Origin: Anaerolineaceae bacterium
GTDB taxonomy: Bacteria > Chloroflexota > Anaerolineae > Anaerolineales > Anaerolineaceae
Reading direction: 5' to 3'
Length of the DNA: 64,000 nt
Assembly (NCBI GenBank): GCA_016841365.1
Contig: JAENZI010000004.1
Coordinates: forward strand, 62,001-126,000
The translations under genes and the position numbers were made by a program. Each line of letters starts with the position of its first letter. Position 1 is the first letter of the stretch. The notes under the pieces were generated by a model. That model worked only from the letters and a program-made list of their open reading frames with translations. It had not been told where the DNA came from and did no database searches. Positions 4,674-24,236 of this stretch are shown here, piece after piece.

Positions 4674-5465
4674 TTACTCTAAAGTTGGGAATAGCGATCT
4701 TTGATCCACACTCCATAAGGCGTGATCTAAGCCTACAGCCATCGCACCTGCCTTGAGCATCGCATCTGACTGCCAAGTTTCACTGACGCCGCCGCTGACG
4801 ATCAGCCGCAATCCCCTGGCAGCGAGAGTCTGCAGCGCCCGGAGTTGGATCGGGAACATCGCCGAGCCGTAAAGCCTGCCAGAAACCGTCTCATCGCCTT
4901 CAACGGGCAGCGATCCGCGCGGCGGTAGGAGGTGTACTGCAGCGGGGTGCTGTGCGATCAGCGTTTCCTGCAGCACAGGAATTTGATCTGCCTGCAGGCA
5001 GGGGATAATGGGCAATTCACCGAAAGCCGCTTCCATGAGATCTTCGAGTTGCGCTGCGTCACAATCGAGGGGCAACCCCAGTTCAATGGCGATGAGGTTT
5101 TCCAAGCCCTCAAGCATGCGCACCATATCAGCCAGTGTATTTGGGGAATCAATCAGCAAGTGGGCGATGACTGGCAGTGGCGCATTTGCCCAGCGGCGGC
5201 GGTGATGTTTGATTACGTTCCGGATCCCCGGGTTCGGCCAGCCCGTGTGTAACAAAAAGCCACCTTCGAAGGGCAGGCAGCAGCGGTTATTGGCAGGCTG
5301 GCGCGGCCTGCGGCTGATCGGGTTGGTGATGAAAGCACCTAAGGAGGTAATGAAAGGCGTTGTGCGTATATCCGGAGAAAAACCAAGTGAACCCGGGGTG
5401 TTTACATAAGGCGCAGTCATCTGCAGGTCCTGTTTGCGAAGGGGGGGGTCATCATCCAGCCACAT
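4674..5465 (-). CDS. Divergent dihydroorotate dehydrogenase-like flavoprotein (PyrD-like)
   Basis: The 263-residue TIM-barrel-type protein aligns with class 1 dihydroorotate dehydrogenases. GAFITNPISRRPR matches the flavin-site loop after strand 2, HTGWPNPGIRNV matches the following glycine-rich loop, and LIVSGGVSETWQSDAMLKAG matches the C-terminal phosphate-binding GG region. It is about 40 residues shorter than usual, and the NxNxPN catalytic region is replaced by IELGLP, so normal dihydroorotate oxidation is doubtful. The start is strongly supported by GGAGGTGATC five bases upstream, a near-perfect match to the 16S tail. The reading frame overlaps the preceding PyrK-like gene by 14 bases, implying translational coupling. 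A run of eight G (C in the coding sense) at 5441-5448 lies in the fifth to seventh codons and could cause slippage or assembly error. Confidence 0.7.
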   Translation of the reverse strand: MWLDDDPPLRKQDLQMTAPYVNTPGSLGFSPDIRTTPFITSLGAFITNPISRRPRQPANNRCCLPFEGGFLLHTGWPNPGIRNVIKHHRRRWANAPLPVIAHLLIDSPNTLADMVRMLEGLENLIAIELGLPLDCDAAQLEDLMEAAFGELPIIPCLQADQIPVLQETLIAQHPAAVHLLPPRGSLPVEGDETVSGRLYGSAMFPIQLRALQTLAARGLRLIVSGGVSETWQSDAMLKAGAMAVGLDHALWSVDQRSLFPTLE

Positions 5466-6153
5466 TGATCACCTCCGCTAACGGGAAGACCGGCCCGTCC
5501 TTGCAGATAAACCGCCAACCATGCTGCGTTTTGACCGAGCACACACCGCACTCACCCACACCGTGGCAGGGCATGGCGGTTCTCAGCAGAACCTGGCCAG
5601 AGAATGTTAATTTGGTATCACCAAGGATTGCTGAAAGAGCATTTAATCTCTCAAGGGGCAGGTCGACCGCAAGATAGTCCAACCAAGATAAATTCTCGGC
5701 AAATGCTGATAATGGAACGATTTCAACAATTGAGGGTATCCAGTTGAGAATGTCCTTATCCTTATGCGGGTCAATAAACAAGGTGAGGGAGGCGTTCTGT
5801 GCCAAAGCTGGTTTGATCAGCGGCAGCAATCGCAGCGGCGGAACTTCAAAAGCCAGCAAACCAACCCGACGGGCTGATTCAGGGATAATAAACCCATTTC
5901 CATGCGGAGGAAGCAGATTTAGTTGATCCCCGGGTAACCAGTTTTCAGGTAAGGGACTGACGCTCAAGCCGCTTTCTGGACCAATCACTCGAAATAAATT
6001 GATGGGCAGGGGTTGTATTATGCTATCGTCATCCCTCTGGCAGGGGAGATATTGCCCGGCTTGCGGCCATTGACTGCCTGGCAGGTCCAGAACACCGGAC
6101 CTTTCCTGCCCTGATTGGAAGACTTCAATGAGTTTAGCAGTAGTAGCTGCCAT
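5452..6153 (-). CDS. PyrK-like iron-sulfur flavoprotein subunit
   Basis: This 233-residue protein ends with CHGVGECGVCSV and ICKDGPVF, giving the Cys-x4-Cys-x2-Cys-x11-Cys pattern that binds the [2Fe-2S] cluster in PyrK, the electron-transfer subunit of type 1B dihydroorotate dehydrogenase. The ferredoxin-reductase-like FAD and NAD domains upstream are weakly conserved and the protein is a little short. It overlaps the PyrD-like gene downstream, as expected for a heterodimer. Both subunits are divergent, so the pair may serve a different oxidation than pyrimidine synthesis. Confidence 0.75.
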   Translation of the reverse strand: MAATTAKLIEVFQSGQERSGVLDLPGSQWPQAGQYLPCQRDDDSIIQPLPINLFRVIGPESGLSVSPLPENWLPGDQLNLLPPHGNGFIIPESARRVGLLAFEVPPLRLLPLIKPALAQNASLTLFIDPHKDKDILNWIPSIVEIVPLSAFAENLSWLDYLAVDLPLERLNALSAILGDTKLTFSGQVLLRTAMPCHGVGECGVCSVKTQHGWRFICKDGPVFPLAEVINVAG

Positions 6154-6181
6154 CTGCCCTCTCTGTACGTGTCCCTAGTAA

Positions 6182-7951
6182 TTATTCGAATCGAGCCGTA
6201 ATTTCCTGATGGAGCGTTTTCATTATTTCTTTGATTGCTTGCACAGCTTGATCTTGAGGGACAATCCAGCGTTCTTCCTGGTCGCGGCGTTTGAATTCAA
6301 AGCCGCCGTTTTGCAGGGCACGCGCGGAAACGGTGACCCGCAGCGGCAACCCGATCAGATCGGCATCGTTGAACTTCACCCCGGCGCGTTCATCACGGTC
6401 GTCAAATAAGGGTTCAATGCCTTCCTCATGCAATGCCTGATAGAGTTGTTCTGCGGCTTGTTCGGATGAGCCGTCTTTGGAAGGCAGCAGTACCAGGTGC
6501 ACCGGGTAAGGGGCAATGGTGACCGGCCAGATCAACCCGTGCTCATCATGATATTCTTCGGCGACGCAAGCCAGTAAGCGGCCTACACCAATTCCGTAGG
6601 ACCCCATGATGATGGGTTGGGCTTTCCCATCCTCATCTAAAAAAGTAGCCCCGAGCGCTTCTGTATAACGGGTGCCAAGCTTAAAGATGTTGCCGACCTC
6701 CACACCGCGTCGGGCGGAAAGAGTCCCTTCACACCGGGGGCAGACGTTGCCGTCCTCCGACAGGGCGATATCGGCGACGATATCCGGCTCATAATCCCGC
6801 CCCAGATTGGTGTTGCGCAGGTGATAGCCGGTTTGATTGGCACCGGCTACCAGGTTCTTACAGCTTGGGAGCAGATCATCCGCGACCACCAGCACGTTTT
6901 TCCGTTGGATGCCGATGGGAGAGGCATATCCCGGCATTGCCCCAACCGCCATGATCTCATCATCGGTGGCGGGGCGCAGGTTCTTAATGCTGCCTTTGCC
7001 CGCTGTGCCGACGACATTGACCAGTTTTGTCTCGTTGAGCGCCATATCGCCCCGCAGGACGGCAAAGATCAGCAAGGGTGATTGTTCGTCAGACATTTCT
7101 GCTGTAAAGAAGACCGCTTTTGCTGTGCGCGAGGCGGGAACATCCAGGAAGGCTGCCAGGTCTTTGATGGTTGAAACCTCAGGTGTGGCGACTTTTTCAA
7201 GGGGCAGCAGCGGTTCATCCGGAGGATCCGGTTTGTGAAAATCTGCCACCTGGCGGTTGGCGGCATAATCGCAGGTTTCGCAAAACATGAGTGTGTCTTC
7301 ACCCACTGGCGTCAGGTACATATATTCATGGGCTTCTTTGCCGCCCATCATGCCGGTATCTGAACCCACTGCCCTGACGGGCAGACCGCAGCGGTTGAAG
7401 ATGCGAAAGTATGCTTGGTAATGTGCCTGATATTGCTGATCCAACCCCTCCCAATCACGGTCGAGGCTGTAACTGTCGAGCATGGTGAACTCGCGCACTC
7501 GAATCAAGCCCGCCCTTGGGCGCGGGTCATCGCGGAATTTGGTCTGGACGTGGTAGATCAACTGGGGTAACTGGCGATAGGATTGGATCTCACGTCTCGC
7601 CAGGTCTGTGACGACTTCCTCATGGGTCATCGCTAAAACCATGTCGTGCTGGGTGCGGTCTTTGAAACGTGCCATTTCATCGCCGATTTGAGACCAGCGG
7701 CCTGTTTCCTGCCAGACATCTGCTGGGTGGACGACCGGCATGGTCAGTTCTTGCCCGCCGATGGCATTGATCTCTTCACGCATGATGTTTTCTATTTTGG
7801 TCATGGCACGGCGTGCCAGGGGCAGATAGGAAAAAATTCCCGCGCCTAATTGGCGGATAAAACCCGCCCTGAGCAGGAGTTTGTGGCTGGAAATTTCAGC
7901 TTCCGTCGGGTCTTCGCGCAGTGTGGTGCTGAACAGGCATGTCATCCGCAT
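6182..7951 (-). CDS. proS: Prolyl-tRNA synthetase
   Basis: The 589-residue protein is a bacterial-type ProRS. It begins with the class II motif 1 region (LLRAGFIRQLGAGIFSYLPL), carries motif 2 with FRDDPRPRAGLIRVREF, contains the long inserted editing domain between motifs 2 and 3 (about residues 230-400), and has motif 3 GSYGIGVGRLL followed by the anticodon-binding domain. It charges tRNA-Pro and clears misacylated alanine. It starts only three bases after the bactofilin gene, so the two are cotranscribed. Confidence 0.97.
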   Translation of the reverse strand: MRMTCLFSTTLREDPTEAEISSHKLLLRAGFIRQLGAGIFSYLPLARRAMTKIENIMREEINAIGGQELTMPVVHPADVWQETGRWSQIGDEMARFKDRTQHDMVLAMTHEEVVTDLARREIQSYRQLPQLIYHVQTKFRDDPRPRAGLIRVREFTMLDSYSLDRDWEGLDQQYQAHYQAYFRIFNRCGLPVRAVGSDTGMMGGKEAHEYMYLTPVGEDTLMFCETCDYAANRQVADFHKPDPPDEPLLPLEKVATPEVSTIKDLAAFLDVPASRTAKAVFFTAEMSDEQSPLLIFAVLRGDMALNETKLVNVVGTAGKGSIKNLRPATDDEIMAVGAMPGYASPIGIQRKNVLVVADDLLPSCKNLVAGANQTGYHLRNTNLGRDYEPDIVADIALSEDGNVCPRCEGTLSARRGVEVGNIFKLGTRYTEALGATFLDEDGKAQPIIMGSYGIGVGRLLACVAEEYHDEHGLIWPVTIAPYPVHLVLLPSKDGSSEQAAEQLYQALHEEGIEPLFDDRDERAGVKFNDADLIGLPLRVTVSARALQNGGFEFKRRDQEERWIVPQDQAVQAIKEIMKTLHQEITARFE

Positions 7952-7954
7952 CGG

Positions 7955-8416
7955 TCAGCCTTCCTCTTGTTGTGTTTCGGCTTCATCGGTGAGGGGTTCT
8001 TCCTCCGCAATCGTCTCAGCTGGCAGGTCCGAGAGGTCAATTTTTTCTTCCATCGTGATCTTGCCGCGCAAAAACGCGCCTTCATCGGTAGCAAAGGAAT
8101 GGGTGGTGACATCGCCATATACCCGGCCGGTGGCGCGAATTTCGAGTTTTTCTGCCTTGATTTGGCCATTCACGGAACCGGCAACGATGACTGTATCTGC
8201 CTGTAATTTTTCGCAGGTCACGCGCCCGGTTTCACCAACAATGACCATCCCGCGGATGGCGATTTCACCTTCCAACGCGCCCTCGATGCGCACACCGCCT
8301 TTGCCGCGCAGGTCGCCCTTCCAGTTGATGCCGGGGCCCAACACAGTTGTGACACGCTCAACAGGAGCGGTACCGGGAGAGAATGTGGGTTCGGGTTTCT
8401 TCTTGCCAAATAACAT
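7955..8416 (-). CDS. Bactofilin (polymer-forming cytoskeletal protein)
   Basis: The 153-residue protein has a short charged N-terminal tail and a core of repeating beta turns (about residues 28-118). The core includes GDLRGKGGVRIEGALEGEIA and repeated G-x-V-x-G spacings, the right-handed beta-helix pattern of DUF583 bactofilins. The C-terminal tail is rich in glutamate. Bactofilins self-assemble into filaments that localise cell-wall or envelope enzymes. It lies between the E2-like acyltransferase gene and proS on the same strand. Confidence 0.92.
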   Translation of the reverse strand: MLFGKKKPEPTFSPGTAPVERVTTVLGPGINWKGDLRGKGGVRIEGALEGEIAIRGMVIVGETGRVTCEKLQADTVIVAGSVNGQIKAEKLEIRATGRVYGDVTTHSFATDEGAFLRGKITMEEKIDLSDLPAETIAEEEPLTDEAETQQEEG

Positions 8417-8468
8417 TCGCTTGGCCTTTCTTTATAAATTGGTTAGATAAGTTCTTTTGGTAGATGTT

Positions 8469-9575
8469 TCACTTACGGGGCGGCCAGATCGTCCCTGCTG
8501 GGACCACGCCACCATCCGGGACATCGGCTTTGACGGTTGCGCCATTACCGACACGCGCACCTGCGCCAATCTTCACATACAGGTTCACCGTCGCCCGCAT
8601 ACCAATCAGGGCGCGTTCACCTACTATCACGCCGCCTGCCAGGGTTGCGCCCGGTGAGAGGTTGACATAGTTACCGAGGACACAGTCATGCGAGACGATT
8701 GCGCCCGTGTTGACGATGCCTCCAAATTGAACTTCTACTTGTGTGCCGATGTAGGCAAAGGGGAAGACCTGGACACCGTCTGCCAGTTGAGCGCTGTCTT
8801 CTATGAAGGCAGTGGGGTGGATGACCGTCGGGATATGGAATCCAGTCCGTCTCAGGATATTGAATGCCGATAGACGGGATTGCAGGTCGCTGATCCCGCC
8901 AATGCCATTGAGTGCCATCCTGACGCCGTCCTTAGCCAGCGTGTGCAGATCAGCGCCCCCGCCCAGCACGGGTAAGCCGAGGACTGTTTCACCAACGGGG
9001 ATGCCGTCATCAATGAACCCGAGGATGTCGTAAGTTCCCAACTTCTGAACAAGGGCTGCCAGTGACCGTCCATGGCCGCCTGCGCCGTAGATCACAAGGC
9101 GGTTTTCACCTTCCGGGATGCTGATTTGTTGCTGTTCAACCTTGAGTTGTGCTTCAACCATCTCTCGTGTCACCAGGGGGCCTTGCGGCAGGATAGACAG
9201 GTCAATGCCGTGAGCCAGCGCCAGCTCTCGGGCAGGTGCTGTGATCCGGAGACCGCTGGGTTCTGACTTTGTTTTTGGTTCCTCGGCTGGTAGGGGTGTC
9301 CAGGGCGGCAGGGCAGGGTCGTGTGCGTCGGGGGTCTCACCGATGTAAGCCAGCACATCTCCAGCTTGCAGGGTATCGCCCGGGGTAAAGCGGACCCCAA
9401 CCAGGTATCCTGAAGATTCGGCTTGCAGTTCGCCGGTGGATTTGGTGGTTTCAATCACCGCAATCACCTGGCCTTCTTTGATTGATTCGCCTTCTGCAAT
9501 TTCAAGTGACACCAGCAAGGCTTCGGTTTCATTGGGGTTGAGCAAAGGGATTTTGATGGGGGTCAGATGATTCAT
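8469..9575 (-). CDS. Lipoyl-E3BD-NeuD/PglD fusion: E2-like protein with a hexapeptide acyltransferase core
   Basis: Three modules are visible in 368 residues. Residues 1-80 are a lipoyl domain with the attachment lysine Lys45 in ETTKS. Residues 111-145 match the peripheral subunit-binding domain of E2 proteins (ITAPARELALAHGIDLS, then a VTREMVEAQL helix). From about 158 the sequence is a NeuD/PglD-type sugar acyltransferase: an N-terminal Rossmann fold with VIYGAGGHGR, then left-handed beta-helix hexapeptides with the likely catalytic His296 in SHDCVLGN. The usual chloramphenicol-acetyltransferase-like E2 core (HxxxDG) is absent. The gene directly follows E1-beta and E1-alpha with almost no spacing. 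The inferred role is transfer of an acyl group, made by E1 and held on lipoyl-lysine, to a sugar or small amine. Confidence 0.85.
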   Translation of the reverse strand: MNHLTPIKIPLLNPNETEALLVSLEIAEGESIKEGQVIAVIETTKSTGELQAESSGYLVGVRFTPGDTLQAGDVLAYIGETPDAHDPALPPWTPLPAEEPKTKSEPSGLRITAPARELALAHGIDLSILPQGPLVTREMVEAQLKVEQQQISIPEGENRLVIYGAGGHGRSLAALVQKLGTYDILGFIDDGIPVGETVLGLPVLGGGADLHTLAKDGVRMALNGIGGISDLQSRLSAFNILRRTGFHIPTVIHPTAFIEDSAQLADGVQVFPFAYIGTQVEVQFGGIVNTGAIVSHDCVLGNYVNLSPGATLAGGVIVGERALIGMRATVNLYVKIGAGARVGNGATVKADVPDGGVVPAGTIWPPRK

Positions 9576-9578
9576 ATT

Positions 9579-10619
9579 TCACACCATTTCTTGCACGCAG
9601 GCAATGATATCTGCTGTATCAGGCAGGCAATCCGCTTCAAGTTGTGGCGATGCCGGCACGACCACACCTTTTGCCCCCAGGCGTATCGCACGGCTGAGAC
9701 CACCACCCAGGGTTTCAGTTGTCCGTGCCAGCACTTCAGCCCCCCAGCCTGATGATGGGGTTCCTTCTTCAATGGTCAGCAGGCGGTGGGTTTTGCCCAC
9801 GGAAGAAAACAGCGGCGAAAGTTCGAAGGGGGCCAGTTGTGTGGGCACCAGCAGTTCGCAGAAGATCTCTTGTTCGTAGGCAAGCGCGGTCATAGCATCC
9901 ATGGCTAGTTTTGCCATGTAGCCGTATGCTGCCAGCGTCACCTGCGGTGCAGGCGCACTGCGCAGCGAGAGCTGATAGAAGGGGTAGGGCAATCCGCTGC
10001 CTTTGCTGGCGTCACGCACATCAAATTCCGTCAAGTCTGCAGGGGTTGCTAACTTCAGCAAATATTGCAGTTTGTTTTCAACAAATAATACCGGGGAGGT
10101 CGTGGTGGTGATGGCATGATCGAGCAGCCATCCGGGCAAGCCTAAGGGATGATCGCCCATCAGGTGGAAGGGCGCCAGCACCGTCAGCCCGGGGACGCCC
10201 AGGAAATATTTTTCCAGGGACTGGCTGTGGGTGGGGCCGTAGCCGCGCCGTCCGCCCATTGGTGTGCGGATTATAACCGGGGCATCTCCCTGCCCGTGAT
10301 ACATGGCGTTGAACTTGGTGAGGTGGTTGATGACCTGATCCGCGATCAGGGTGGTGAAATCGCCGAACATGATCTCGACCACCGGGCGCAGGCTACGCAG
10401 CGCCATGCCGCCGGCGATGCCCGTGATGCCCGCTTCAGAGATGGGCGTGGTCATGACTCGCTCGGGGAACTTGCTTGATAGGCCGCGGGTCACTTTGAAA
10501 GAACCGCCGTAGGGATCAAGCAGGTCCTCACCCAGCAAAATGACGCGTTGATCATCCTCCAAGGCTTGTTCCAGACCCATATTCAGCGATTGCAGAACAG
10601 TCGCAGGTTGTTGAGTCAT
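9579..10619 (-). CDS. 2-oxoacid dehydrogenase E1 component, beta subunit
   Basis: The 346-residue protein has the transketolase-like pyrimidine-binding domain (VILLGEDLLDPYGGSFKVTRGL, then a GITGIAGGMAL segment and a GGRRGYGPTHSQS loop with the conserved substrate-side histidine) and a C-terminal transketolase domain that includes LLTIEEGTPSSGWGAEV. This is the PdhB/AcoB/BkdB layout. It pairs with the alpha subunit, whose stop codon overlaps its start by four bases (ATGA). The oxo acid used (pyruvate, branched-chain, or acetoin-type cleavage) cannot be told from sequence. Confidence 0.93.
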   Translation of the reverse strand: MTQQPATVLQSLNMGLEQALEDDQRVILLGEDLLDPYGGSFKVTRGLSSKFPERVMTTPISEAGITGIAGGMALRSLRPVVEIMFGDFTTLIADQVINHLTKFNAMYHGQGDAPVIIRTPMGGRRGYGPTHSQSLEKYFLGVPGLTVLAPFHLMGDHPLGLPGWLLDHAITTTTSPVLFVENKLQYLLKLATPADLTEFDVRDASKGSGLPYPFYQLSLRSAPAPQVTLAAYGYMAKLAMDAMTALAYEQEIFCELLVPTQLAPFELSPLFSSVGKTHRLLTIEEGTPSSGWGAEVLARTTETLGGGLSRAIRLGAKGVVVPASPQLEADCLPDTADIIACVQEMV

Positions 10620-11503
10620 GCCTGCCCCCCTTCCATTGCCAGTGCTTCATCAAAGGCGGCTCGAATCTCTGCTGCAACCTGCTGGTCGATCGCAGAGCGT
10701 TCAACTTCAGGCAGGCGTGCCGCCTGGATGGCAACGGGATCGCGAGTTTGCCATAGTTCTGCCAGCGCATCAGCCGAGCGGGTGTCGTCACCTTTAGAGT
10801 GCGTCCCCAACCGGGCGGTTTCGATGACCAGCGCCTGCGGGGTGCGCTGAGATCTGACTTTGTGGACCAATTCGCCTGCCAGAGGCAAGATCTCGAGGAT
10901 ATCACTGGAATCGATGTGCGTGGTGGGGATGCCGAAAGCCTCAAAACGTTCAGGGATGGAACCGGCAACCGCCAGATGGGCGGGGGTGGTCTGGGCGATG
11001 TGGTTGTTCTCGAGCACAAGCAAAATGGGGGCTTGCCATAAAGAGATCATGTTAAGGCACTCATAGACGATGCCTTCGCCGAGGGTGCCGTCGCCCAAGA
11101 AGTCGACCACGATTGCGCCGCTGTCCAGCCGGGCTTCGGCCATTGCCATACCGGCTGCCATCGCAACCGTGCCGCCTTGCACACCGCTGGAGTAAAAATT
11201 ACGCCAGTGCAGATGCTGGGAGCCGCCCACACCCCCGCACACGCCGCCGGGTTTACCCATCAACTCGGCGTATAGCGCGGTTGGGTCGCCGCCGTAAGCC
11301 AAAAAATGCCCGTGGCAGCGGTGGTTGCTGACCACGACATCGTTCTCTGCCAGGTGGGAGAGGACCCCGACCGCGTTAGCTTCCTGCCCCAAGCTGGTGT
11401 GGGTCGTGCCGGAGAAGATACCGGTGGAGAACTGATTCAGCAGCAGGCTTTCAAATTGCCGGATGTGAACCATCTGCTGATAGAGGCGGGCGTTTTTATC
11501 CAC
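10616..11503 (-). CDS. 2-oxoacid dehydrogenase E1 component, alpha subunit
   Basis: The thiamine diphosphate motif runs from GDG at residues 137-139 to NN at 166-167. An N-terminal HTSLGQEANAVGV region and the SNHRCHGHFLAYGG histidine loop fit PdhA/AcoA-type subunits. At 295 residues it is shorter than typical E1-alpha (about 320-400), lacking part of the C-terminus and the phosphorylation-loop extension. It overlaps the upstream glycosylase gene by eight bases and the downstream beta subunit by four, so the three are translationally coupled. No E3 gene is in the window; E3 would be needed to reoxidise the lipoyl arm. Confidence 0.92.
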   Translation of the reverse strand: MDKNARLYQQMVHIRQFESLLLNQFSTGIFSGTTHTSLGQEANAVGVLSHLAENDVVVSNHRCHGHFLAYGGDPTALYAELMGKPGGVCGGVGGSQHLHWRNFYSSGVQGGTVAMAAGMAMAEARLDSGAIVVDFLGDGTLGEGIVYECLNMISLWQAPILLVLENNHIAQTTPAHLAVAGSIPERFEAFGIPTTHIDSSDILEILPLAGELVHKVRSQRTPQALVIETARLGTHSKGDDTRSADALAELWQTRDPVAIQAARLPEVERSAIDQQVAAEIRAAFDEALAMEGGQA

Positions 11504-12089
11504 GGAACGCCTCCGGATCGGCCATAAAACGCCAGGGGATTGAGCGCCAGGGTTCGGGGACGCTGTTCAGCCCCACGCGGGGTGTTCGGGTAATTAGCTC
11601 GTCTTCGATAGTCTCGCCGGATTCGATCCACAGAGGAGTTTTTTCAGAACATAGATCGGCGTAATTCAGGCCACCATCGATTTTGAGCGCCTGGGTTAAT
11701 TTGGCTGGGCCGTCCGTCCAGCCCCTGCGACCGGCATTGCGCGGGCGGTTGCTCGTCATCTCCTCTTCCCCCTCGACTGGTTGAATAGCACGGATCAGAA
11801 CCGCTGCCGGCGTGCCCTCGCTATCGGTAACGGCATTCAGCAGCCAGTGCATCCCATAGGTGAAATAGATATAGGCATAACCGGGCGGGCCATACATCAC
11901 AGCGGTGCGCGGTGTTTTGCCTGCCGAGGCATGGCAACCCAGGTCTTCTTCGCCCTGGTAAGCTTCGGTTTCTGTGATCAGCCCTGCCAGGCGCCTGCCG
12001 GATTGAATCCGCACCAGGCGGCAGCCCAACAGCTCGCGGGCAACTGTCAGCGCTGGCCGATCGTAGAAGTCGCGTTTTAAGATTGGCAT
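11496..12089 (-). CDS. mpg: 3-methyladenine DNA glycosylase (AAG/MPG family)
   Basis: This 197-residue protein matches the AAG fold. Features are ARELLGCRLV near the start, the catalytic region TETEAYQGEEDLGCHA, the intercalating-loop segment GPPGYAYIYFTYGMHWLLNAV, and the C-terminal RTPRVGL...PWRF. It excises alkylated purines and hypoxanthine in base excision repair. Length is normal for bacterial family members. Its position ahead of E1-alpha with overlapping codons looks like operon packing rather than a functional link. Confidence 0.94.
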   Translation of the reverse strand: MPILKRDFYDRPALTVARELLGCRLVRIQSGRRLAGLITETEAYQGEEDLGCHASAGKTPRTAVMYGPPGYAYIYFTYGMHWLLNAVTDSEGTPAAVLIRAIQPVEGEEEMTSNRPRNAGRRGWTDGPAKLTQALKIDGGLNYADLCSEKTPLWIESGETIEDELITRTPRVGLNSVPEPWRSIPWRFMADPEAFRG

Positions 12090-12185
12090 GTTGTTATTTT
12101 ACTTGATTATCAGATGGCTGATGAACACAAACACGCCCCCTTGTTTGCAATGTAATTCGTATGTAGGATTATCTGCGTCGGTGGA

Positions 12186-13118
12186 TCAGGTGCCGTTCTT
12201 ATATTGCGGATCGCGCTCAACCGTCAGGCGCAGGCCCATTTCAAGCGGAATCAGCGGGACGTAATTGAGAATATCCTTGGCACGAGTGAGATCAGCCTGC
12301 ATGCGCGATACCCCACCGCTAACACGTGGGTTGTAGATCTCTTCAGGGTTGCCCTTGGTGATGTCAATGATCATCCGCGCCAGGTCGCGCACGCTGGTCT
12401 CCGTGCCGCTGCCGACATTGATCACCTGGTGTTTAAGACCCTGAACTGTTGCCGCTGACACAAGTGCATTGACCACATCGTCCACATACACATAATCCCG
12501 AGTTTGGTTGCCGTCGCCGTGGAAGACGAGGGTGCCGTTTTGCCTGGATTGGCGGATAAAGTTGGGGATAATGGGTGGATGGGAGGGGGGGATGCGCTGG
12601 CCGGGGCCGTAGGCGTTGAAGATTCTCAGGCAGATGGTCTGGATGCCGGATAGATCGCCGATCGTGCGCACATACCATTCGGAAGCGAGCTTGGAGGCTG
12701 CGTAAGGCGAAAGGGGGTGTGGCTGCATCGTTTCGGACATGGTCGGCCCCTGCTGGTCGCCATAGACCGCGCCAGAGGAAGTCAAGATCACACGTTGGGT
12801 GCCGGCATCGCGCACGGCTTCCATCAATGTGGCGGTGCCGCCCACGTTCACTTCGTTGTAGTCACGCGGGAACAGGATCGATTCAGGCACGGATACCCGC
12901 GCTGCAAGGTGGTAGACGCAGTCGATCTCTTGTAAAAGGGTCCATAATTTGGGGCGGTCGTTGATGTCGCCGCGCGTGAAGTGCACATCGGGGTCAAGCG
13001 CATCCGGGTTGCCTGTGGAAAGATCGTCCAACACACGCACGTGATGCCCCTGCCTTGCCAATCGGTTGCTTAATGCAGCGCCCAAAAAGCCTGCGCCGCC
13101 TGTAATCAGAAAATTCAT
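12186..13118 (-). CDS. NAD-dependent epimerase/dehydratase, UDP-glucose 4-epimerase-like
   Basis: The 310-residue short-chain dehydrogenase of the extended type has the NAD motif GGAGFLG at the N-terminus, the TSSGAVYG serine and the YAASK catalytic pair. NAYGPGQ and a GDGNQTRDYVYVDDVV segment are typical of nucleotide-sugar epimerases. It probably acts on a UDP- or dTDP-sugar for envelope polysaccharide. Its strand and position put it upstream of the E1/lipoyl-acyltransferase set, which makes a nucleotide sugar a possible acceptor for that enzyme; this link is inference. Confidence 0.88.
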   Translation of the reverse strand: MNFLITGGAGFLGAALSNRLARQGHHVRVLDDLSTGNPDALDPDVHFTRGDINDRPKLWTLLQEIDCVYHLAARVSVPESILFPRDYNEVNVGGTATLMEAVRDAGTQRVILTSSGAVYGDQQGPTMSETMQPHPLSPYAASKLASEWYVRTIGDLSGIQTICLRIFNAYGPGQRIPPSHPPIIPNFIRQSRQNGTLVFHGDGNQTRDYVYVDDVVNALVSAATVQGLKHQVINVGSGTETSVRDLARMIIDITKGNPEEIYNPRVSGGVSRMQADLTRAKDILNYVPLIPLEMGLRLTVERDPQYKNGT

Positions 13119-13185
13119 GGTTATCTCTTTGTCTCCAAAACGTCAGACATCATAGCACACTCTTGGTGTAGATGGAAGTGCGTCA

Positions 13186-14109
13186 TCAGATCGTGGTGAC
13201 CGATGGGAGTTGGGTGGCTAACTTGCGGGGGGTATCGGTTGTCAGGTCGTCAATGCCATGTTCAACCAGGAAGCGCGCCAGCATGATGTCTTCCGGCTTG
13301 TTGACGTCGATCGTCCACCCATCCACTCGTGACCCCTGCCGGTGGAGGTATTGGATCCAGTCGAAACCGGCATCGAAAGCCATCTTCAAGAGGTCTCCGC
13401 GGATGAACCATTGACACCCCTTTGGTACCTGCACCAGCAGCGCACCGGCGCGGGCGGCAAAATAGTCGCCCAGGGCGCCCCATTGATAGGCAGAAAGGGG
13501 ATGGTCATCCAGCAGGCCATAGGCACCCACCCGGAAGGGTGGGATATCTTCGGGGCGCGGCTCGTCATCTGGAATATCGAGATACAGCAAGGGATCAAAC
13601 CCCAATGAAAGTTCAGGAGAGAATTGTGCCAGGGCGCGCACAGCCCAGTCAGAGACTGAGGTGACCTGGATGCGGTCCAGAACCGGCTCGAGCAGGTCTA
13701 AAAATTCACGCAGCACGCCACGGGTGAGGGGTGAGTAAGGCTTCAGATCCAATTGCAAGCGCTGGGTTTTGGGATAAGCCTTGAGCAGATCAATTGCCCC
13801 CTCGAGAAAGCTGACTTTCTCCTCGGTGACGGCGCCATCCATCGTGTAAAACAGGTTTTCAACCTGCTCGCGCTTCATTTGGGGCGCTTTGCCCTGCCCG
13901 TTGGTGTCGGATTCGAGGTTCTGGTCATGCAGCAGCGCAAAGCTGCCATCCGCCAGCGGGATCACATCAATTTCGATGGCGACTGCGCCAGCGCTCAGGC
14001 ATTTTTCGAGGGCGGTCAATGAGCTGGGCGGGGCAGTATGCTGGCAGTTGGCCGCATGATGGATCAGCGTGACGGGTCTTTGCCTTAGTTCGTGGGTTTC
14101 TTTGAGCAT
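13186..14109 (-). CDS. Glycerophosphodiester phosphodiesterase family protein
   Basis: The 307-residue TIM-barrel protein shows the GDPD signatures HHAANCQHTAP (the HRG...E region, here HHA and without the usual Glu-Asn-Thr), AIEIDVIPLADGSFALLHD (acidic metal ligands and catalytic His), QLDLKP, and the C-terminal GWTIDVNKPEDI segment. It would hydrolyse deacylated phospholipids or related diesters. The N-terminal changes make the exact substrate uncertain. It is the first gene of the long minus-strand run and diverges from the aldolase gene. Confidence 0.8.
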   Translation of the reverse strand: MLKETHELRQRPVTLIHHAANCQHTAPPSSLTALEKCLSAGAVAIEIDVIPLADGSFALLHDQNLESDTNGQGKAPQMKREQVENLFYTMDGAVTEEKVSFLEGAIDLLKAYPKTQRLQLDLKPYSPLTRGVLREFLDLLEPVLDRIQVTSVSDWAVRALAQFSPELSLGFDPLLYLDIPDDEPRPEDIPPFRVGAYGLLDDHPLSAYQWGALGDYFAARAGALLVQVPKGCQWFIRGDLLKMAFDAGFDWIQYLHRQGSRVDGWTIDVNKPEDIMLARFLVEHGIDDLTTDTPRKLATQLPSVTTI

Positions 14110-14220
14110 GTGTTCTCCGGGAGTTGTTGATGAAAAACTGATTAATTCATTTTAACAGCAAAGTGACAAAAGATAAAGAAAAAAGATCGCTTTTTTACAC
14201 CACGGCGGGTGCTGGGTGGT

Positions 14221-14247
14221 TTGAGCCGGATGATTTGTGGGTATAAT
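14221..14247 (+). promoter_or_regulatory. Promoter of the aldolase-flavodiiron operon
   Basis: A perfect TATAAT lies at 14242-14247 with a TTGAGC 15 bases upstream, a slightly short spacer. Transcription would begin about 70 bases before the aldolase start codon. Confidence 0.6.
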
Positions 14248-14323
14248 AAAATGTTGAAGACTTTATTCACAAATTTTGTTCTTATTCTCACATAAGACAT
14301 AAACATTTAGAAATGAGGAGACA

Positions 14324-15274
14324 ATGATCGTAACGACCAAGAAGTTATTTGAAGCTGCCTACGGAAAGTACGCCATCGGCGCTTACAACATCAACAATCT
14401 CGAGCAGATTGTGGGTTTATTCCGCGGTAATTTGCAATCCAAAGCGCCCTTTATCATCCAGATCAGCAAGGGCGCCCGCTCCTACACCGACAAGATCCTG
14501 CTGGAAGGTCTGATTCGCAGCGCGGACGAAGTCTATCCGGATGCGATCTTTGCCGTGCATCTCGACCATGGCGATGAAGCCGCCGCAATGGACTGCATTG
14601 AATCCGGCTTCTACAGCTCGGTGATGATCGACGCCAGCCATGAGGATTTTGATACCAACATCGCCATCACCCGCCGCGTGGTTGAAGCCGCGCACGCCAA
14701 AGGCATTGTGGTGGAGGCGGAATTAGGGCAACTGGGCGGTGTGGAAGAGCATGTGCAGGTGGATGAAGCCGATGCCAAGCTAACCGACCCCAAGCAGGCC
14801 AGGGAATTTGTGGAACGCTCAGGCTGCGATTCGCTGGCGGTCGCCATCGGCACCAGCCACGGCGCATTCAAGTTCTCAGGCTCGCAGTCGCTGCACTTTG
14901 ACGTGTTGGAACAGATCCAAAAAGAGCTGCCGGGCTTCCCCCTGGTGATGCATGGCTCTAGCTCGGTGCCGCAGGACGAGGTCAGACGCATCAACGCGGC
15001 TGGCGGCAAGATCGAAGGCGCCAAAGGCGTGGATGCCACCCAATTTAGGCACGCAGCAGAGCTGGGTGTGACCAAGATCAACATCGACACGGACGGACGC
15101 CTGGTGTGGACGCGTGTGCACCGGGAGGTCTTCCGTGATAAACCCGAAGTCTTCGACCTGCGCTACCCGGGCAAGATCTTCATGCAGGAATATGCCAACT
15201 TCATCGCAGAGAAGAATGAATACCTCGGCAGCGCCGGCCACCTTGATGAGGTGCGCGAGATCGTTTCAAAATAA
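14324..15274 (+). CDS. fba: Class II fructose-bisphosphate aldolase
   Basis: The 316-residue protein has the zinc-binding FAVHLDHGDE motif, VMIDASHEDFD, the VVEAELGQLGG glutamate region, a GTSHGAFK potassium/phosphate loop, LVMHGSSS and the C-terminal KINIDTDGR. These define class II ketose-bisphosphate aldolases, which cleave fructose 1,6-bisphosphate in glycolysis or run in reverse. GAGGAG precedes the ATG. The flavodiiron gene follows after 11 bases and shares the transcript. Confidence 0.95.
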   Translation: MIVTTKKLFEAAYGKYAIGAYNINNLEQIVGLFRGNLQSKAPFIIQISKGARSYTDKILLEGLIRSADEVYPDAIFAVHLDHGDEAAAMDCIESGFYSSVMIDASHEDFDTNIAITRRVVEAAHAKGIVVEAELGQLGGVEEHVQVDEADAKLTDPKQAREFVERSGCDSLAVAIGTSHGAFKFSGSQSLHFDVLEQIQKELPGFPLVMHGSSSVPQDEVRRINAAGGKIEGAKGVDATQFRHAAELGVTKINIDTDGRLVWTRVHREVFRDKPEVFDLRYPGKIFMQEYANFIAEKNEYLGSAGHLDEVREIVSK

Positions 15275-20165: not shown

Positions 20166-20237
20166 GGGCCCGTAGCTCAGCGGCAGAGCAGGCGGCTCAT
20201 AACCGCTCGGTCGTAGGTTCGAATCCTACCGGGCCCA
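20166..20237 (+). tRNA. tRNA with CAT anticodon (tRNA-Met type)
   Basis: A full cloverleaf is present. The 7-bp acceptor GGGCCCG pairs with CGGGCCC; the D arm is GCTC...GAGC; the anticodon stem GGCGG/CCGCT encloses the loop CTCATAA (anticodon CAT); the T arm is GTAGG-TTCGAAT-CCTAC. The discriminator is A and the genomic CCA is incomplete (CCT follows). CAT could be elongator Met, initiator or lysidine-modified Ile; the acceptor pairs first, so initiator is unlikely. The 3' half is the attachment site of the island. Confidence 0.95.
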
Positions 20238-20248
20238 CCTTTTAAGCA
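20203..20248 (+). repeat. attL: tRNA 3' end used as integration site (copy 0)
   Basis: A 46-base core runs from the anticodon stem through the tRNA 3' end plus CTTTTAAGCA. It is repeated exactly at 25669 and 26506 and in decayed form at 29052, 30506 and 33683. A related tail (GCAGTTAACAATT) follows and is also seen as GCAATTAACAATT after copies 1 and 2. This copy keeps the functional tRNA sequence TAACCGC, while every downstream copy except copy 3 (TATCCAC) reads TATCCGC. Confidence 0.9.
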
Positions 20249-20390
20249 TTTTTGCTGGTGCAGTTAACAATTATTCGCGTTTATAGGTCAAAGAATTGGC
20301 GTGAGGGCTTTACTATATAATAACTATTTCTAATTGAAAAATACCAATAACTGCATTTCGGACTTATAGATTTGTTCTTTAGGGAGTTAG

Positions 20391-21008
20391 ATGAAGAAAA
20401 TCACTCAATTGCTTAAGTGGATTTTAAAAGCTTGGCCTATACTTGGAATTGCTGCATTCTTTTTTATTCATAAATTTTTTCTGATGATATTATCTTATTT
20501 TACCTACGAAGTAAATTCGATTTTTTCTTCATTGTCACAATTTCTGGGAGGGCTTATCATAATTATCATAATCGGTAAGAATATTTCAGAGTTTCGTCAT
20601 ATGAATTTACTATCGTATGTCAAGGAATATTTCAAATCATTCCCATTACTAAAACATCATCATAAAATTACTGGTAAGGCTTCGTTTCCCGCTTCATCAT
20701 CTTTAGACGCATATGCATTTACAGAAGGTAAATGGGAGACGGTAGAGCAAGGGATACAAGAATTAGAAAAAAGAATAAGGAACTTGCGAACGGAAATGAA
20801 TAATAAGTATGATAATATAAACAAGAGGTTTACAGAAATTAAAGATGAATTGAACGCCTCAATAAATATGAATACTCGAGAAATTCACGAAGTACAAAAA
20901 AGCCTTGAAAGAACCGTTTTGGATGATCTTAAAATTCAATTTTTTGGGATATTGCTTGTGGTCTATGGTTTTATAGTAGATCTTTTGATTATTTTTCCCC
21001 TTCAATAA
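20391..21008 (+). CDS. Unrecognised coiled-coil membrane protein, island cargo
   Basis: The family is not recognised. The 205 residues show two hydrophobic segments near the N-terminus (about 12-35 and 50-62), a long charged coiled coil (about 110-175, ELEKRIRNLRTEMNNKYDNI) and a hydrophobic C-terminal segment (about 183-203). An ATG with TAGGGAG upstream fits the start. It lies between attL and the integrase gene on the opposite strand. It resembles in layout the other membrane coiled-coil protein at the far end of the same element, although sequence similarity is not evident. Low GC marks it as acquired. Confidence 0.65.
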   Translation: MKKITQLLKWILKAWPILGIAAFFFIHKFFLMILSYFTYEVNSIFSSLSQFLGGLIIIIIIGKNISEFRHMNLLSYVKEYFKSFPLLKHHHKITGKASFPASSSLDAYAFTEGKWETVEQGIQELEKRIRNLRTEMNNKYDNINKRFTEIKDELNASINMNTREIHEVQKSLERTVLDDLKIQFFGILLVVYGFIVDLLIIFPLQ

Positions 21009-21119
21009 TCATTAACTACTTTAACTTTTTAGATACTATTACTCTAACCGATAATTTTTCACATACCTAGAATTTATGGTTATTTAATGATTAATAGTGA
21101 ATTGATAGAAACAAAAACA

Positions 21120-22187
21120 TTAAGGTAATTTCTTCTCTAGCTTACTAATAATTTCTTGATTTTTTCTCAATAATTCCATCAGTGTTTCTTGATCATCTGG
21201 TAAAGTTTTTTCAGTTAGAGAAGTTATTTGCTCTTTGATATCTGCATCCGATAATCCCCCATAAATTCCATCCGTGATACTAATATTTGTATGCATGAGG
21301 TTTTGACTTATTGCTTTTAGCTGGCTGATATCTTTAGCATGTTTTAGAGAGTAAACAGCGAATCCATGCCGAAATTTATGCGGTGAATGATAAGGTAATC
21401 CAACTTTATCAAGCCATTCTTTCAAGTCTTTCCTGGCCCCCGCATGCCGATTTACACCAATAAAGGAATTATCCTTATCTAATTCTCCAGTTTCCGGAGA
21501 GATATTAGCAAACCAGGGATGATCTTTACTCAAATTTGATCTTACAAAATCATCCCATTCTTTTACAATTTCTAAAAGTTCTGGAATATTTAGCAGATAC
21601 GTTGTTGCATGTTTTCCAAATTTTGTATGTACCCCTAGCTTCGGCCATTGTTTTATTTCTCGCTTTTCAAGATCAAGACCTTTAATAGGTAATGTCACAA
21701 ATGCACCAATCCTTATTCCAGATAGAAACCATAGAATGGCAGCTGCCCTTATCCTTTTTTCTCTCAATGTTTGGACCGGTGCTTTAGCAATTGTCCTAAT
21801 CTCTTCAATGGTTACCGCTTCATGCTCTTTGTGTTCGATGGTCATTCTTGGAGGTTTCAATGTATCCAGCCATGCTTGATCAATTGAACTTAATCCCCTT
21901 TTGTGTGTTCTAAGCCATTGGAAGAAGTTGTAAGATGATCTAATTATCTTCTTCACGTAAACAGACGAGAAAGGCTCTCTAGAACCGTCTAAACGGGCAT
22001 CTAACAGATATTCGGGTAATGTTGGGCGTATTTTATTCACTTTATCAAAAGGTTTCTCTTGTGCCCATTCTAATAAATGACGCAGCCAGGTTTCTTCTAA
22101 GCGCAGGGAATTTTTTGAAAGCAGATCCACTTCTTTCCGATACTTCAGATATTCCTGAACGAATTTCCAATTCCCCCGATTGATCAT
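21120..22187 (-). CDS. int: Tyrosine recombinase / integrase
   Basis: The 355-residue protein has an N-terminal SAM-like core-binding domain (about 10-110) and a catalytic domain with all expected residues: Arg159 in SGIRIGA, His270 and Arg273 in SPHKFRHG, His299 in LMHTN and nucleophile Tyr309 in DGIYGGL. The C-terminus (about 325-355) forms a short coiled coil. It would integrate and excise the element at the tRNA-Met 3' end. Its start overlaps the stop of the HTH/zinc-ribbon gene by four bases. A decayed relative is found in the third segment of the island. Confidence 0.95.
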   Translation of the reverse strand: MINRGNWKFVQEYLKYRKEVDLLSKNSLRLEETWLRHLLEWAQEKPFDKVNKIRPTLPEYLLDARLDGSREPFSSVYVKKIIRSSYNFFQWLRTHKRGLSSIDQAWLDTLKPPRMTIEHKEHEAVTIEEIRTIAKAPVQTLREKRIRAAAILWFLSGIRIGAFVTLPIKGLDLEKREIKQWPKLGVHTKFGKHATTYLLNIPELLEIVKEWDDFVRSNLSKDHPWFANISPETGELDKDNSFIGVNRHAGARKDLKEWLDKVGLPYHSPHKFRHGFAVYSLKHAKDISQLKAISQNLMHTNISITDGIYGGLSDADIKEQITSLTEKTLPDDQETLMELLRKNQEIISKLEKKLP

Positions 22188-22588
22188 TTATGAAGCTTGT
22201 CCTTTTTCGTTATCCTGGCCAACTTGCGACCGCATTTAGGGCAAAATGAAATGAGATAATGCAACCGCCCTTTATTCTCTATTTTGGGATTAATTATCTT
22301 GACAGGTTTTTTACAGGTTAAGCAAAAGGTTTCGTCCTGACCGAGAGAAACCCTGGGGTAAGTTTCTTCATACCATTCTCTAAACGCTTTACCATTAATC
22401 CAGATATACCTTTTTTCATCTCTAGTGTGAGGACATCCAGCAGGTATATAAACTCGGTAAACCTGACGCCTTGTGAACCCCACTTCTTCAGCTAATTCAC
22501 TTGGTTTGTAAAGCATTTCTAAAAGCTTGATCAATCGCATTCTTTGTGACCCATTCAGTCGCCCTTTAATATACATTTCTTTTGCCAT
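22184..22588 (-). CDS. HTH plus zinc-ribbon protein, possible excisionase/accessory factor
   Basis: The 134-residue protein has an N-terminal helix-turn-helix-like part (about 22-65: LYKPSELAEEVGFTRRQVYR), similar to MerR/excisionase-type domains. A C-terminal four-cysteine zinc ribbon follows (CLTCKKP ... CPKCGRK, about 88-122). It is coupled to both neighbours: four bases shared with the integrase gene and one with the Rep gene. The arrangement suggests control of recombination direction or help for integrase, which is inference. Confidence 0.65.
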   Translation of the reverse strand: MAKEMYIKGRLNGSQRMRLIKLLEMLYKPSELAEEVGFTRRQVYRVYIPAGCPHTRDEKRYIWINGKAFREWYEETYPRVSLGQDETFCLTCKKPVKIINPKIENKGRLHYLISFCPKCGRKLARITKKDKLHK

Positions 22589-23493
22589 TATTTATTTCTC
22601 CCTAATATTAGATCGTAACGGGGACCTCTTCTATACCTACCTCTATCAATCATTTTATTAATGACTTCTGGTGGTTGTGTATCTACAATAGTGCTGAATG
22701 CAGGCGATATTTGTTGATCAAACCAACTTAAGAGATTTTCCATTGATACTTCTTTTGGGTTGGATACCGTGATCCATGCACGACCGATGCTATTTGTAAA
22801 TTTTTCCCACCATGGCAAATCAATATCAATATAATCTCTTAGATGACCTATCATTATTTGAAACCATTCTGAAATGTCATTAGCCCTGAATAAATCACAA
22901 GATACGACATGCGCTCTTTTATCCCGCATCTGAAATTCAAATCTTGTTGGACCTCTTTTGTTATATACCGTGATCATTCTTTGAGAAGTTGAAGAACCAA
23001 ACTCGACGGTATAAGTTCCGATTTCCCCGTTATCTCTTTCTTGAAATGGCGATCCATGCACATGAAGCGTTTCACGCTTAGCAAGTGACCTAACCAGATC
23101 ATTTTTAATTGCAAATTCGACATCTTGTGGAGTAAATGGAATATTATCGAACGCAAAATCTAAGCGTTTATATTTATATTCATCTGCATAATTTGACCGT
23201 AGATAGAGATCCAAACCTTGATAATAATCCCATGTTATATGATCGCATGCATTACCCGGTATCTCATAGTGAAAATACTCATCATTCCTTATTGGATCCA
23301 AATAAATTTTAAATTGAAGAGCGCTTCTTAGAATTGTTTTAAAACCACGTCCCCCATGCCCTAAATTTTCCAATGGGCCAAATAAATCTTTGAAGAATAG
23401 CTCATAGATATCTAAAGCATCTTGTCTTGATGCATGCACCGTAAAGGATAACCAATGCACTCTAAATGTTATTTCTCCATTTTCACCTTTCAT
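22588..23493 (-). CDS. Replication initiation factor-like protein (Rep_trans family)
   Basis: The 301-residue protein starts with FRVHWLSFTVH, has YKRLDFAFDNIPFTP in the middle, and MITVYNKRGPTRFEFQMRDK with a candidate nucleophile tyrosine. This pattern is typical of Rep_trans (PF02486) rolling-circle initiators on small plasmids and integrative elements. It would nick the double-strand origin after excision. GC-rich hairpins and a multi-arm palindrome lie immediately upstream. The length is typical. It might serve instead as a MobT-like relaxase. Confidence 0.8.
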   Translation of the reverse strand: MKGENGEITFRVHWLSFTVHASRQDALDIYELFFKDLFGPLENLGHGGRGFKTILRSALQFKIYLDPIRNDEYFHYEIPGNACDHITWDYYQGLDLYLRSNYADEYKYKRLDFAFDNIPFTPQDVEFAIKNDLVRSLAKRETLHVHGSPFQERDNGEIGTYTVEFGSSTSQRMITVYNKRGPTRFEFQMRDKRAHVVSCDLFRANDISEWFQIMIGHLRDYIDIDLPWWEKFTNSIGRAWITVSNPKEVSMENLLSWFDQQISPAFSTIVDTQPPEVINKMIDRGRYRRGPRYDLILGRNK

Positions 23494-23517
23494 TTATTTA
23501 TCCTTTTCTAAAACTCC

Positions 23518-23615
23518 ACCCACCTATCAGTAGGGGTGGGTTACGAATTCCTAATTCATTCTTTCAGAAAGAGCCAACCGAAACGGCACCTCCCCGCCTT
23601 GGGGAAGCGGGTGCC
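23518..23615. repeat. Two GC-rich hairpins upstream of the Rep-like gene
   Basis: One near-palindrome (23518-23541, ACCCACCTA against TAGGGGTGGGT) and one nested hairpin (23585-23615, GGCACC/GGTGCC around CCCC/GGGG) stand in otherwise AT-rich DNA. They are candidate rolling-circle origin or terminator structures. Confidence 0.5.
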
Positions 23616-23671
23616 CCTCCGTTATCCTGGTTGGTTTTTTCTTTGTATTCATTCATCCAATAAAGCCTTTT

Positions 23672-23938
23672 TTAGTTCCTTTGCGCAAGCAGTCCGTCCT
23701 CGTCACCTGCGGGCGGGCTGTTGCGCAAGTTCATAAAATGATCATCTGATTTTTCTTTAATCCCTAATTGCTCGGCCAACTGGACCGAACCGATCATTAA
23801 CGCAGTTCTGAAGAAGTGCGCTTTTTTCAGTCCTGATTTACTCATCCAGGAAAGCATTGACTGTTTTGCAGAAATAGGTAAAACAATGTTTACCCGTCCA
23901 TAAGTGCCAGTTTTTCTCTTTATAATTTCTTCAGTCAT
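23672..23938 (-). CDS. Small putative DNA-binding protein of the element
   Basis: The family is not firmly recognised. The 88 residues include VNIVLPISAKQSMLSWMSKS followed by LKKAHFFRTALMIGSVQLAEQLG. That strand-helix-helix layout is compatible with ribbon-helix-helix proteins or mobilisation/partition accessory proteins. The last 20 residues are encoded by GC-rich DNA with a repeated TTGCGCAAG, unlike the rest. It lies between the Rep gene and the palindromic region on the same strand as Rep. Confidence 0.55.
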   Translation of the reverse strand: MTEEIIKRKTGTYGRVNIVLPISAKQSMLSWMSKSGLKKAHFFRTALMIGSVQLAEQLGIKEKSDDHFMNLRNSPPAGDEDGLLAQRN

Positions 23939-23965
23939 AAAAACTCCAATTCAACTTTTTTCGCC

Positions 23966-24097: not shown

Positions 24098-24130
24098 AAG
24101 GCTAATGAAGAAGCGAAAAAAGTTTCCTCT

Positions 24131-24150: not shown

Positions 24151-24236
24151 TTTATTATTAGAGTTGTAAAGAATAAATCAATACCGGTTATACCAATAAT
24201 GATATACGTAATAATGTATAATGTCAAGGGTGAAAA

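Follow-up and report, generated by a model that had tools for sequence, protein, structure and literature searches.

A lipoyl-PglD/NeuD fusion encoded with a two-subunit E1 in an Anaerolineaceae bacterium, a candidate coenzyme A-independent sugar N-acyltransferase

To characterize an unusual set of acyl-transfer genes, we analyzed 64,000 nucleotides (nt) of an Anaerolineaceae bacterium (GCA_016841365.1, contig JAENZI010000004.1, positions 62,001 to 126,000 of the forward strand; here called the window). On the minus strand at 8469-11503, the list of open reading frames (ORFs) shows three genes packed as a unit: E1-alpha and E1-beta, the two subunits of a thiamine diphosphate (ThDP)-type E1, and a single protein in which lipoyl and PSBD-like domains are joined to a PglD/NeuD-type acyltransferase (Table 1). 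The E1-beta and E1-alpha genes overlap by 4 nt, and the fusion begins 3 nt past E1-beta. An earlier interpretation made from the DNA letters (the sequence-only reading) had described these three proteins in overlapping or near-touching genes, and the ORFs, Pfam, and NCBIfam bear this out. Pfam identifies E1_dh in E1-alpha and Transket_pyr plus Transketolase_C in E1-beta. The motifs around the ThDP site are kept, and some of the residue roles at this site are ones that we take to be established. Others follow the excerpted text of PMC2663715.

The fusion passes the NCBIfam cut-off for TIGR03570 (NeuD/PglB/VioB; 179.7 bits versus 160.8), and the distant fusions L105 to L107 fall below it (130.5 to 148.5 bits). 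By sequence comparison, its closest solved relatives over residues 156 to 360 are Neisseria PglB and perosamine N-acetyltransferase, and residues 7 to 107 match E2 proteins; the fold matches of an AlphaFold model are to lipoyl/E2 structures and to PerB/PglB. Lys45 (in the motif ETTK) and His296, which the sequence-only reading had singled out, are both present and, together with Asp189 and Asp190, are invariant across 18 aligned fusions that are 25 to 68% identical to the window protein. The roles of the catalytic His and of the UDP-binding Asp pair are taken from PglD and Pcryo_0637, as described in the excerpted part of PMC8040287. The E1/E3-binding domain named in the same reading holds up in part. 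Profile-profile comparison by hhalign with the genome's own two E2 proteins spans both the lipoyl domain and the PSBD (98.9%, E 2.7e-17), and the AlphaFold model predicts helices at 113-121 and 137-147, but Pfam calls no such domain in the window protein and finds E3_binding in only 3 of the 18 aligned fusions (E ≤ 0.1, best 0.0032).

The sequence-only reading had stated that an intact E2 core (HxxxDG) elsewhere in the same operon in relatives would refute it. None was found in the fusion protein, in the 64-kb window, at the 23 other intact fusion loci, or at the relic locus L014. A hidden E2 core near the fusion was rejected, since the same search recovered both control operons (L061 and L062, with HRVIDG and HRVTDG). 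An E3 above cut-off (581.5 bits) is encoded elsewhere in the genome, as are two canonical E1/E2 operons. The cluster shares E1-alpha/beta and lipoyl and PSBD-like domains with the pyruvate and branched-chain 2-oxo acid dehydrogenase complexes; unlike them, it lacks an E2 core, its E3 lies elsewhere, and its E1 falls outside the sampled canonical-type clade.

The three-gene unit is conserved in Chloroflexota, and its relatives in named genomes are Anaerolineae-type members of that phylum. Because fusions up to 68% identical recur in other genomes with the same gene order, an artefact or chance fusion was rejected. Our count of fusions that retain the lipoyl lysine comprises 24 distinct loci: the window, L001-L007, L009-L013, L027, L028, L105-L110, L146, L147, and L181. 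Excluded before counting were L070 and L071 (genomes of L001 and L003), L111 (genome of L023), L008, and the fragments L026, L029, and L030. E1 genes adjoin the fusion at 21 of the 24 loci (E1-beta, and E1-alpha too unless the contig ends), with one unrelated ORF inside the set at L013 and at L028. These observations support an E1 that is dedicated to the fusion. At L028, a gene for a tetratricopeptide repeat (TPR)-histidine kinase (L028:7147-8988) separates E1-alpha from E1-beta.

Full-length fusions occur in at least 9 of 396 genomes of the class, the source genome included, with the best five candidates scored per genome. A phylum-level search of 400 genomes (E ≤ 1e-40) added two more, G674 and G549. 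At E ≤ 1e-45, full-length fusions were found in 3 of 158 genomes in the class of G549 and, within the order of G336, in 2 of 46. None of 386 Acidobacteriota genomes has one; 12 matched at E ≤ 1e-45, none of them before profile position 119. None of 73 matching plasmid records covers 80% of the fusion, the phage count is likewise 0 of 10, and a search of five genomes of other phyla led nowhere. One match with 76% coverage, H5 from Phyllobacterium, was rejected as a fusion, being annotated as a 213-residue acetyltransferase that adjoins a DegT gene. A DNA N4/N6-methylase gene lies beside or near the fusion at two loci (L012:8968-9873, by Pfam, and L007:14375-15283, by a similar start).

The lipoyl lysine and the E1 genes are lost together. 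Among same-clade PglD loci without an intact lipoyl domain (L014-L025, L112, and L113), E1 genes lie beside none of the 14, a count that covers the locus DNA, of which little is upstream at L018 and L021. In other Anaerolineaceae, a stand-alone PglD, with neither lipoyl domain nor E1, often occupies the same slot, from the DNA glycosylase gene to the bactofilin gene. Two relics, L014 and L112, retain a decayed lipoyl domain whose lysine motif is gone (LESRRGS and LISGTEE), and they have no PSBD and no E1 at the locus. We also searched 14 whole genomes for E1-alpha (those of L012, L013, nine stand-alone PglDs, L014, L009, and L008), and a close E1-alpha (56 to 60%) was found only in those of L012 and L013. 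None of the nine stand-alone-PglD genomes has one (best identity 27 to 34% in eight, no match in one), and the best matches in the genomes of L014 and L009 reach 32% and 30%. The joint disappearance is concluded from these three observations, namely, no E1 at the locus, no close E1-alpha in the genome, and relics without the lysine. The L008 genome has a canonical-like E1-alpha match (31%) and a 46-residue remnant (57%). At L008:9634-10843, this remnant is followed by a PSBD-PglD protein, without a lipoyl domain or E1-beta, which is either a natural deletion or an assembly error or chimera. In the PglD trees, from which L018 and L028 were excluded as short or gapped, the stand-alone sequences nest among the fused ones, in one tree as a single branch (92/74).

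The gene context of relatives points to an amino sugar. At 6 of the 10 loci of one grade, a gene for a PglC-type phosphoglycosyl transferase (PGT; about 205 to 211 residues) either immediately precedes E1-alpha or sits one gene away (L007, L010 with the PGT cut by the contig end, L011-L013, and L028; the other four are L009 and L108-L110), and at L013 a DegT aminotransferase gene is directly downstream of the fusion. PglC adjoins the stand-alone PglD at L017, and a PglE-like gene is nearby at L025, L112, and L113. L181 carries, on one strand, E1-alpha, E1-beta, the fusion, DegT, PGT, Gfo/Idh, Wzz-GGDEF, and flippase genes; the order at L146 is PGT, Gfo/Idh, lipoyl-NeuD, E1-alpha, E1-beta, DegT, Wzz, Wzy-type ligase, and glycosyltransferase. 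At both loci, the E1 genes thus stand inside amino-sugar operons, near the aminotransferase that would make the acceptor. Their Gfo/Idh proteins have UDP-GlcNAc 3-dehydrogenase as best family, below its cut-off (186 and 164 versus 450 bits), and the acceptor there is perhaps a 3-amino sugar. The Wzz chain-length protein of L181 is fused to a GGDEF diguanylate cyclase domain (L181:4370-5626), within an envelope-sugar operon. The source genome has its own orthologues of PglC (57 to 65%, versus at most 43% for the other four PGTs) and PglE (59 to 66%, versus about 30% for the other three listed), as well as 12 matches to PF02719, two of them strong dehydratases. With PglC-, PglE-, Gfo/Idh-, and Wzz-type genes around the unit in relatives, a nucleotide amino sugar is the most likely acceptor. 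The sequence-only reading had taken the epimerase and bactofilin genes next to the unit as a hint of an envelope product; both are syntenic in the unit's own family, but the stronger sugar evidence lies outside the window.

The sequence-only reading had also proposed that E1 acts on a 2-oxo acid, and the leading alternative to our interpretation retains this idea: lipoyl-to-sugar transfer would take place, with E1 decarboxylating a 2-oxo acid and placing an acetyl or other acyl group on the sugar. The Pfam families and the kept catalytic motifs agree with it, as do the closest solved structures by sequence, which are the human pyruvate dehydrogenase (PDH) E1 subunits, and a separate lineage of the same gene plan, L146, carries a canonical-like E1. 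E1-alpha scores far below both PDH E1 cut-offs (204.6 versus 393.85 bits for TIGR03182 and 121.9 versus 411.35 bits for TIGR03181), and E1-beta scores far below that of PRK09212 (172.2 versus 321 bits). The kinship of the window E1s argues against the 2-oxo acid version. In both subunit trees, the cluster E1s form a clade of their own (100/100) relative to canonical-type E1s of the source genome and relatives. This clade, again at 100/100, unites the window-clade E1s, L106, and L181 (for E1-beta also L105) with RenH and the actinomycete L183-L185, which had ranked best among relatives of the window E1s in a plasmid collection (RenH on a renieramycin plasmid). Among the matches listed, E1-alpha is 43 to 51% identical to RenH and L183-L185 versus at most 37.3% elsewhere, and E1-beta is 36 to 42% identical to them (190 to 273 bits, versus at most 177 bits elsewhere). 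Q96, G142, and Q171 of E1-alpha and P36, S48, Y127, P129, and E251 of E1-beta are fixed in both the cluster E1s and RenH/L183-L185 and rare in 16 other E1s (15 canonical-type plus L146). RenH and L183-L185 nest within the cluster clade in the E1-beta tree (97/94), and the E1-alpha tree leaves this nesting open.

L183 is annotated as an acyl carrier protein (ACP), E1-alpha, E1-beta, and E2 within a nonribosomal peptide synthetase (NRPS) setting. In the unannotated L184 and L185, as in L183 and RenH-RenI, E1-alpha comes first, then E1-beta and then an E2-like gene. The lipoyl motif is ETSK in RenI and L183, ETTK in the fusions, and ETDK in the two canonical E2s of the source genome. A single ACP query from L183 gave no match at E ≤ 1 in window positions 5001-15000, a weak, one-query test. 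On plasmid pSRL1 of Sphingobium indicum (L187:2486-4669), the gene after E1-alpha and E1-beta encodes a stand-alone lipoyl protein of 79 residues, with no E2 annotated within the 5.9 kb shown.

According to the excerpts of PMC6335953, QncN/QncL/QncM and SclQ1-4 use a ketose phosphate as the source of a hydroxyethyl or glycolyl unit that reaches ACP by way of lipoyl, and the excerpted text of PMC7570522 likens DinS/DinU to NapB/NapD by homology, with the same C2 loading onto ACP. As far as these excerpts go, NapB/NapC/NapD, QncN/QncL/QncM, SclQ1-4, DinS/T/U, and RenH/RenI resemble the window in combining a two-part ThDP E1 with a lipoyl protein, and these NRPS C2-loading systems pass the acyl group to a non-CoA (coenzyme A) acceptor, as we propose here. 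RenH and L183-L185 share the E1 clade of the window, and RenI and L183 have a lipoyl motif (ETSK) near that of the fusion. Unlike the C2-loading systems, which use an E2-like core and ACP, the window has a PglD-type beta-helix and, by context, a nucleotide amino sugar. Because each E1 subunit shares its clade with RenH and with actinomycete E1s encoded ahead of E2-like genes, and such gene sets are described as glycolyl-forming, we changed the proposed donor to a ketose phosphate; the 2-oxo acid version is still a candidate, although we consider it unlikely.

We therefore weigh the following mechanism. E1-alpha/beta, acting as a RenH-type ThDP enzyme, would draw a C2 unit from xylulose 5-phosphate or another ketose phosphate, or else from hydroxypyruvate, and pass it to the lipoyl group on Lys45 by reductive glycolylation. 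With a flexible linker and the PSBD-like domain keeping it close to E1, the lipoyl domain would then swing to the PglD domain, where His296 would aid attack on the thioester by the amine of a UDP-4-amino sugar, supplied by a PglE-type aminotransferase, to yield an N-glycolyl amino sugar. A shared E3 would re-oxidize the dihydrolipoyl group, and a PglC-type transferase would load the sugar onto undecaprenyl phosphate for an envelope glycan. We regard direct transfer from lipoyl to sugar as probable. That the acyl group is glycolyl is a tentative assignment, with chances slightly short of even, and for the three genes as a CoA-independent sugar N-acyltransferase in this ketose-phosphate/glycolyl form the balance is even.

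Rather improbable, by comparison, is a version in which the beta-helix domain uses an acyl-CoA donor or a CoA acceptor, with E1 and the lipoyl arm serving only to raise local acyl-CoA. PglD and Pcryo_0637 do use acetyl-CoA, as stated in the excerpted PMC8040287, and same-clade stand-alone sisters exist without a lipoyl domain or E1. There is, however, no known lipoyl-to-CoA route at the fusion loci, because no E2 core was found at any of them. A C-terminal GxPA motif also separates the groups: 21 of 23 ordinary relatives carry it, as against only 2 of 22 fusions (L146 and L147). The excerpted text of PMC8040287 describes a conserved proline of Pcryo_0637 that changes upon CoA binding, and we take GxPA to be the site of this proline by our own mapping. 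Loss of GxPA was rejected as proof of lipoyl use because stand-alone sisters of the same clade lack it too. Least probable, and very much so, is that E1 and the lipoyl domain form a regulatory or scaffolding module, or one that acylates a protein or some other small molecule, without being directly linked to sugar acylation: the PSBD-like domain could serve assembly only, and the sugar substrate is an inferred one, but neither Lys45 nor His296 varies in any of the 18 sequences, the UDP-binding Asp pair is kept, and placement in amino-sugar operons is repeated in separate lineages.

Several observations weigh against the proposed glycolyl-transfer mechanism. Known TIGR03570 members use acetyl-CoA. 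E1 kinship alone does not prove a ketose substrate, and the match to known systems is by gene content only for Nap, Qnc, Scl, and Din and by sequence alone for RenH and L183-L185. The sequence-only reading had raised whether E1 genes always flank lipoyl-PSBD-NeuD fusions; they usually do, but no E1 is visible at 3 of the 24 intact-lysine loci (L009, L107, and L147, the latter two on short contigs), and L009 has none within 10 kb upstream and no close E1-alpha in its genome. The L009 fusion (L009:9983-11092) itself has an intact lipoyl lysine and a Gln in place of the catalytic His. The GxPA tail is missing from all 12 stand-alone sister PglDs and from the relic L014, and these sisters perhaps use acyl-CoA without GxPA or a lipoyl arm in trans. 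The AlphaFold monomer model is modest (mean predicted local distance difference test score [pLDDT] of 70, with beta-helix blocks at 40 to 68), and the PglC, PglE, and E3 genes of the source genome are on other contigs. A single fused clade is not rejected in the PglD tree (approximately unbiased [AU] test, P = 0.285); tree topology was thus rejected as proof of lipoyl-domain loss, and the direction, loss rather than gain, rests on the relics. Lastly, L146 lies outside the cluster E1 clade, with a canonical-like E1, an ETDK lipoyl motif, and a GxPA tail, and therefore this lineage of the same plan may work differently. The lipoyl-NeuD plus E1 architecture may thus have arisen twice, but a single E1-alpha clade that includes L146 is not rejected (AU P = 0.412).

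The neighbors of the unit are listed in Table 1. The epimerase and bactofilin genes named in the sequence-only reading are present, but a 3-methyladenine DNA glycosylase gene separates E1-alpha from the epimerase. Farther along the window, a stretch of about 13.5 kb (20166-33900) that begins just past a tRNA-Met gene has low G+C (0.34 to 0.41, versus about 0.5 to 0.6) and encodes a tyrosine integrase (21120-22187, minus strand), a Rep_trans replication initiator (22588-23493, minus strand), and a helix-turn-helix (HTH) protein; it is probably an integrated mobile element.

TABLE 1 Features of the three-gene unit and its neighbors (window positions)
Feature	Position	Strand	Basis and remarks
Bactofilin, conserved neighbor outside the enzyme	7955..8416	-	Pfam and synteny in relatives
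Lipoyl - PSBD-like - PglD/NeuD acyltransferase fusion	8469..9575	-	368 aa
Left-handed beta-helix acyltransferase domain, about residues 250-368	8472..8828	-	Hexapep; C-terminal GxPA, found in most ordinary relatives, is missing
Codon of His296, which corresponds to catalytic His125 of PglD	8688..8690	-	Alignment; Gln in L009
PglD_N Rossmann domain, about residues 158-245	8841..9104	-	Pfam PglD_N at 159-226; Asp189/Asp190 match the two Asp residues with which PglD binds UDP
PSBD-like domain, about residues 108-147	9135..9254	-	hhalign to own E2s; E3_binding in 3/18 fusions; two predicted helices
Lipoyl domain, residues 1-80	9336..9575	-	Pfam PF00364 Biotin_lipoyl at 7-78; fold matches include lipoyl structures
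Codon of Lys45, the residue of ETTK predicted to be lipoylated	9441..9443	-	Invariant in 18 sequences; lost in relics L014 and L112
E1-beta	9579..10619	-	346 aa; retains the motifs TPISE and THSQSLE; pyrimidine-binding and C-terminal domains of the transketolase type
E1-alpha	10616..11503	-	E1_dh family, 295 aa from a GTG start; residues 137-167 hold the ThDP motif GDG...NN, and His235 lies in the loop THSKGDDTR
3-Methyladenine DNA glycosylase, conserved neighbor	11496..12089	-	8-nt overlap with E1-alpha start; Pfam and synteny
NAD-dependent nucleotide-sugar epimerase/dehydratase, conserved neighbor	12186..13118	-	Pfam, NCBIfam, and synteny

The known beta-helix sugar N-acyltransferases draw their acyl group from acyl-CoA, and LpxA and LpxD draw theirs from acyl-ACP; to our knowledge, no left-handed beta-helix enzyme accepts a lipoyl thioester. 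The fusion shares with PglD, NeuD, VioB, and PerB (TIGR03570) the Rossmann and beta-helix domains, the catalytic His, the UDP-binding Asp pair, and, in relatives, PglC/PglE-type neighbors; unlike the known members, it has a lipoyl domain, and the window clade lacks the GxPA motif. Among the best-ranked matches in the open-licence PMC literature, we found no description of the union of lipoyl, PglD/NeuD, and E1. In the excerpted text of PMC4875605, "lipoylation" means fatty acylation of glycans. The sequence-only reading had known of no described pathway of this form, which holds in that literature for the whole arrangement but not for lipoyl delivery to a non-CoA acceptor, already described for ACP. 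As far as we searched, what is new is the union of lipoyl delivery and PglD enzymes, both of which were already known. A CoA-free route to N-glycolyl amino sugars, by way of a transketolase-like E1, glycolyl-S-lipoyl, and a beta-helix enzyme, is possible, if somewhat doubtful. The E1-beta tree would allow envelope-sugar E1s of this kind as the ancestors of the E1s that load glycolyl in antibiotic clusters. If the proposal is true, lipoyl would be a new donor class for beta-helix sugar N-acyltransferases, and the unit would account for an N-glycolyl (or other) acyl group formed with neither a hydroxylase nor free acyl-CoA. It would also link the machinery for glycolyl loading in antibiotic clusters to envelope chemistry in Chloroflexota.

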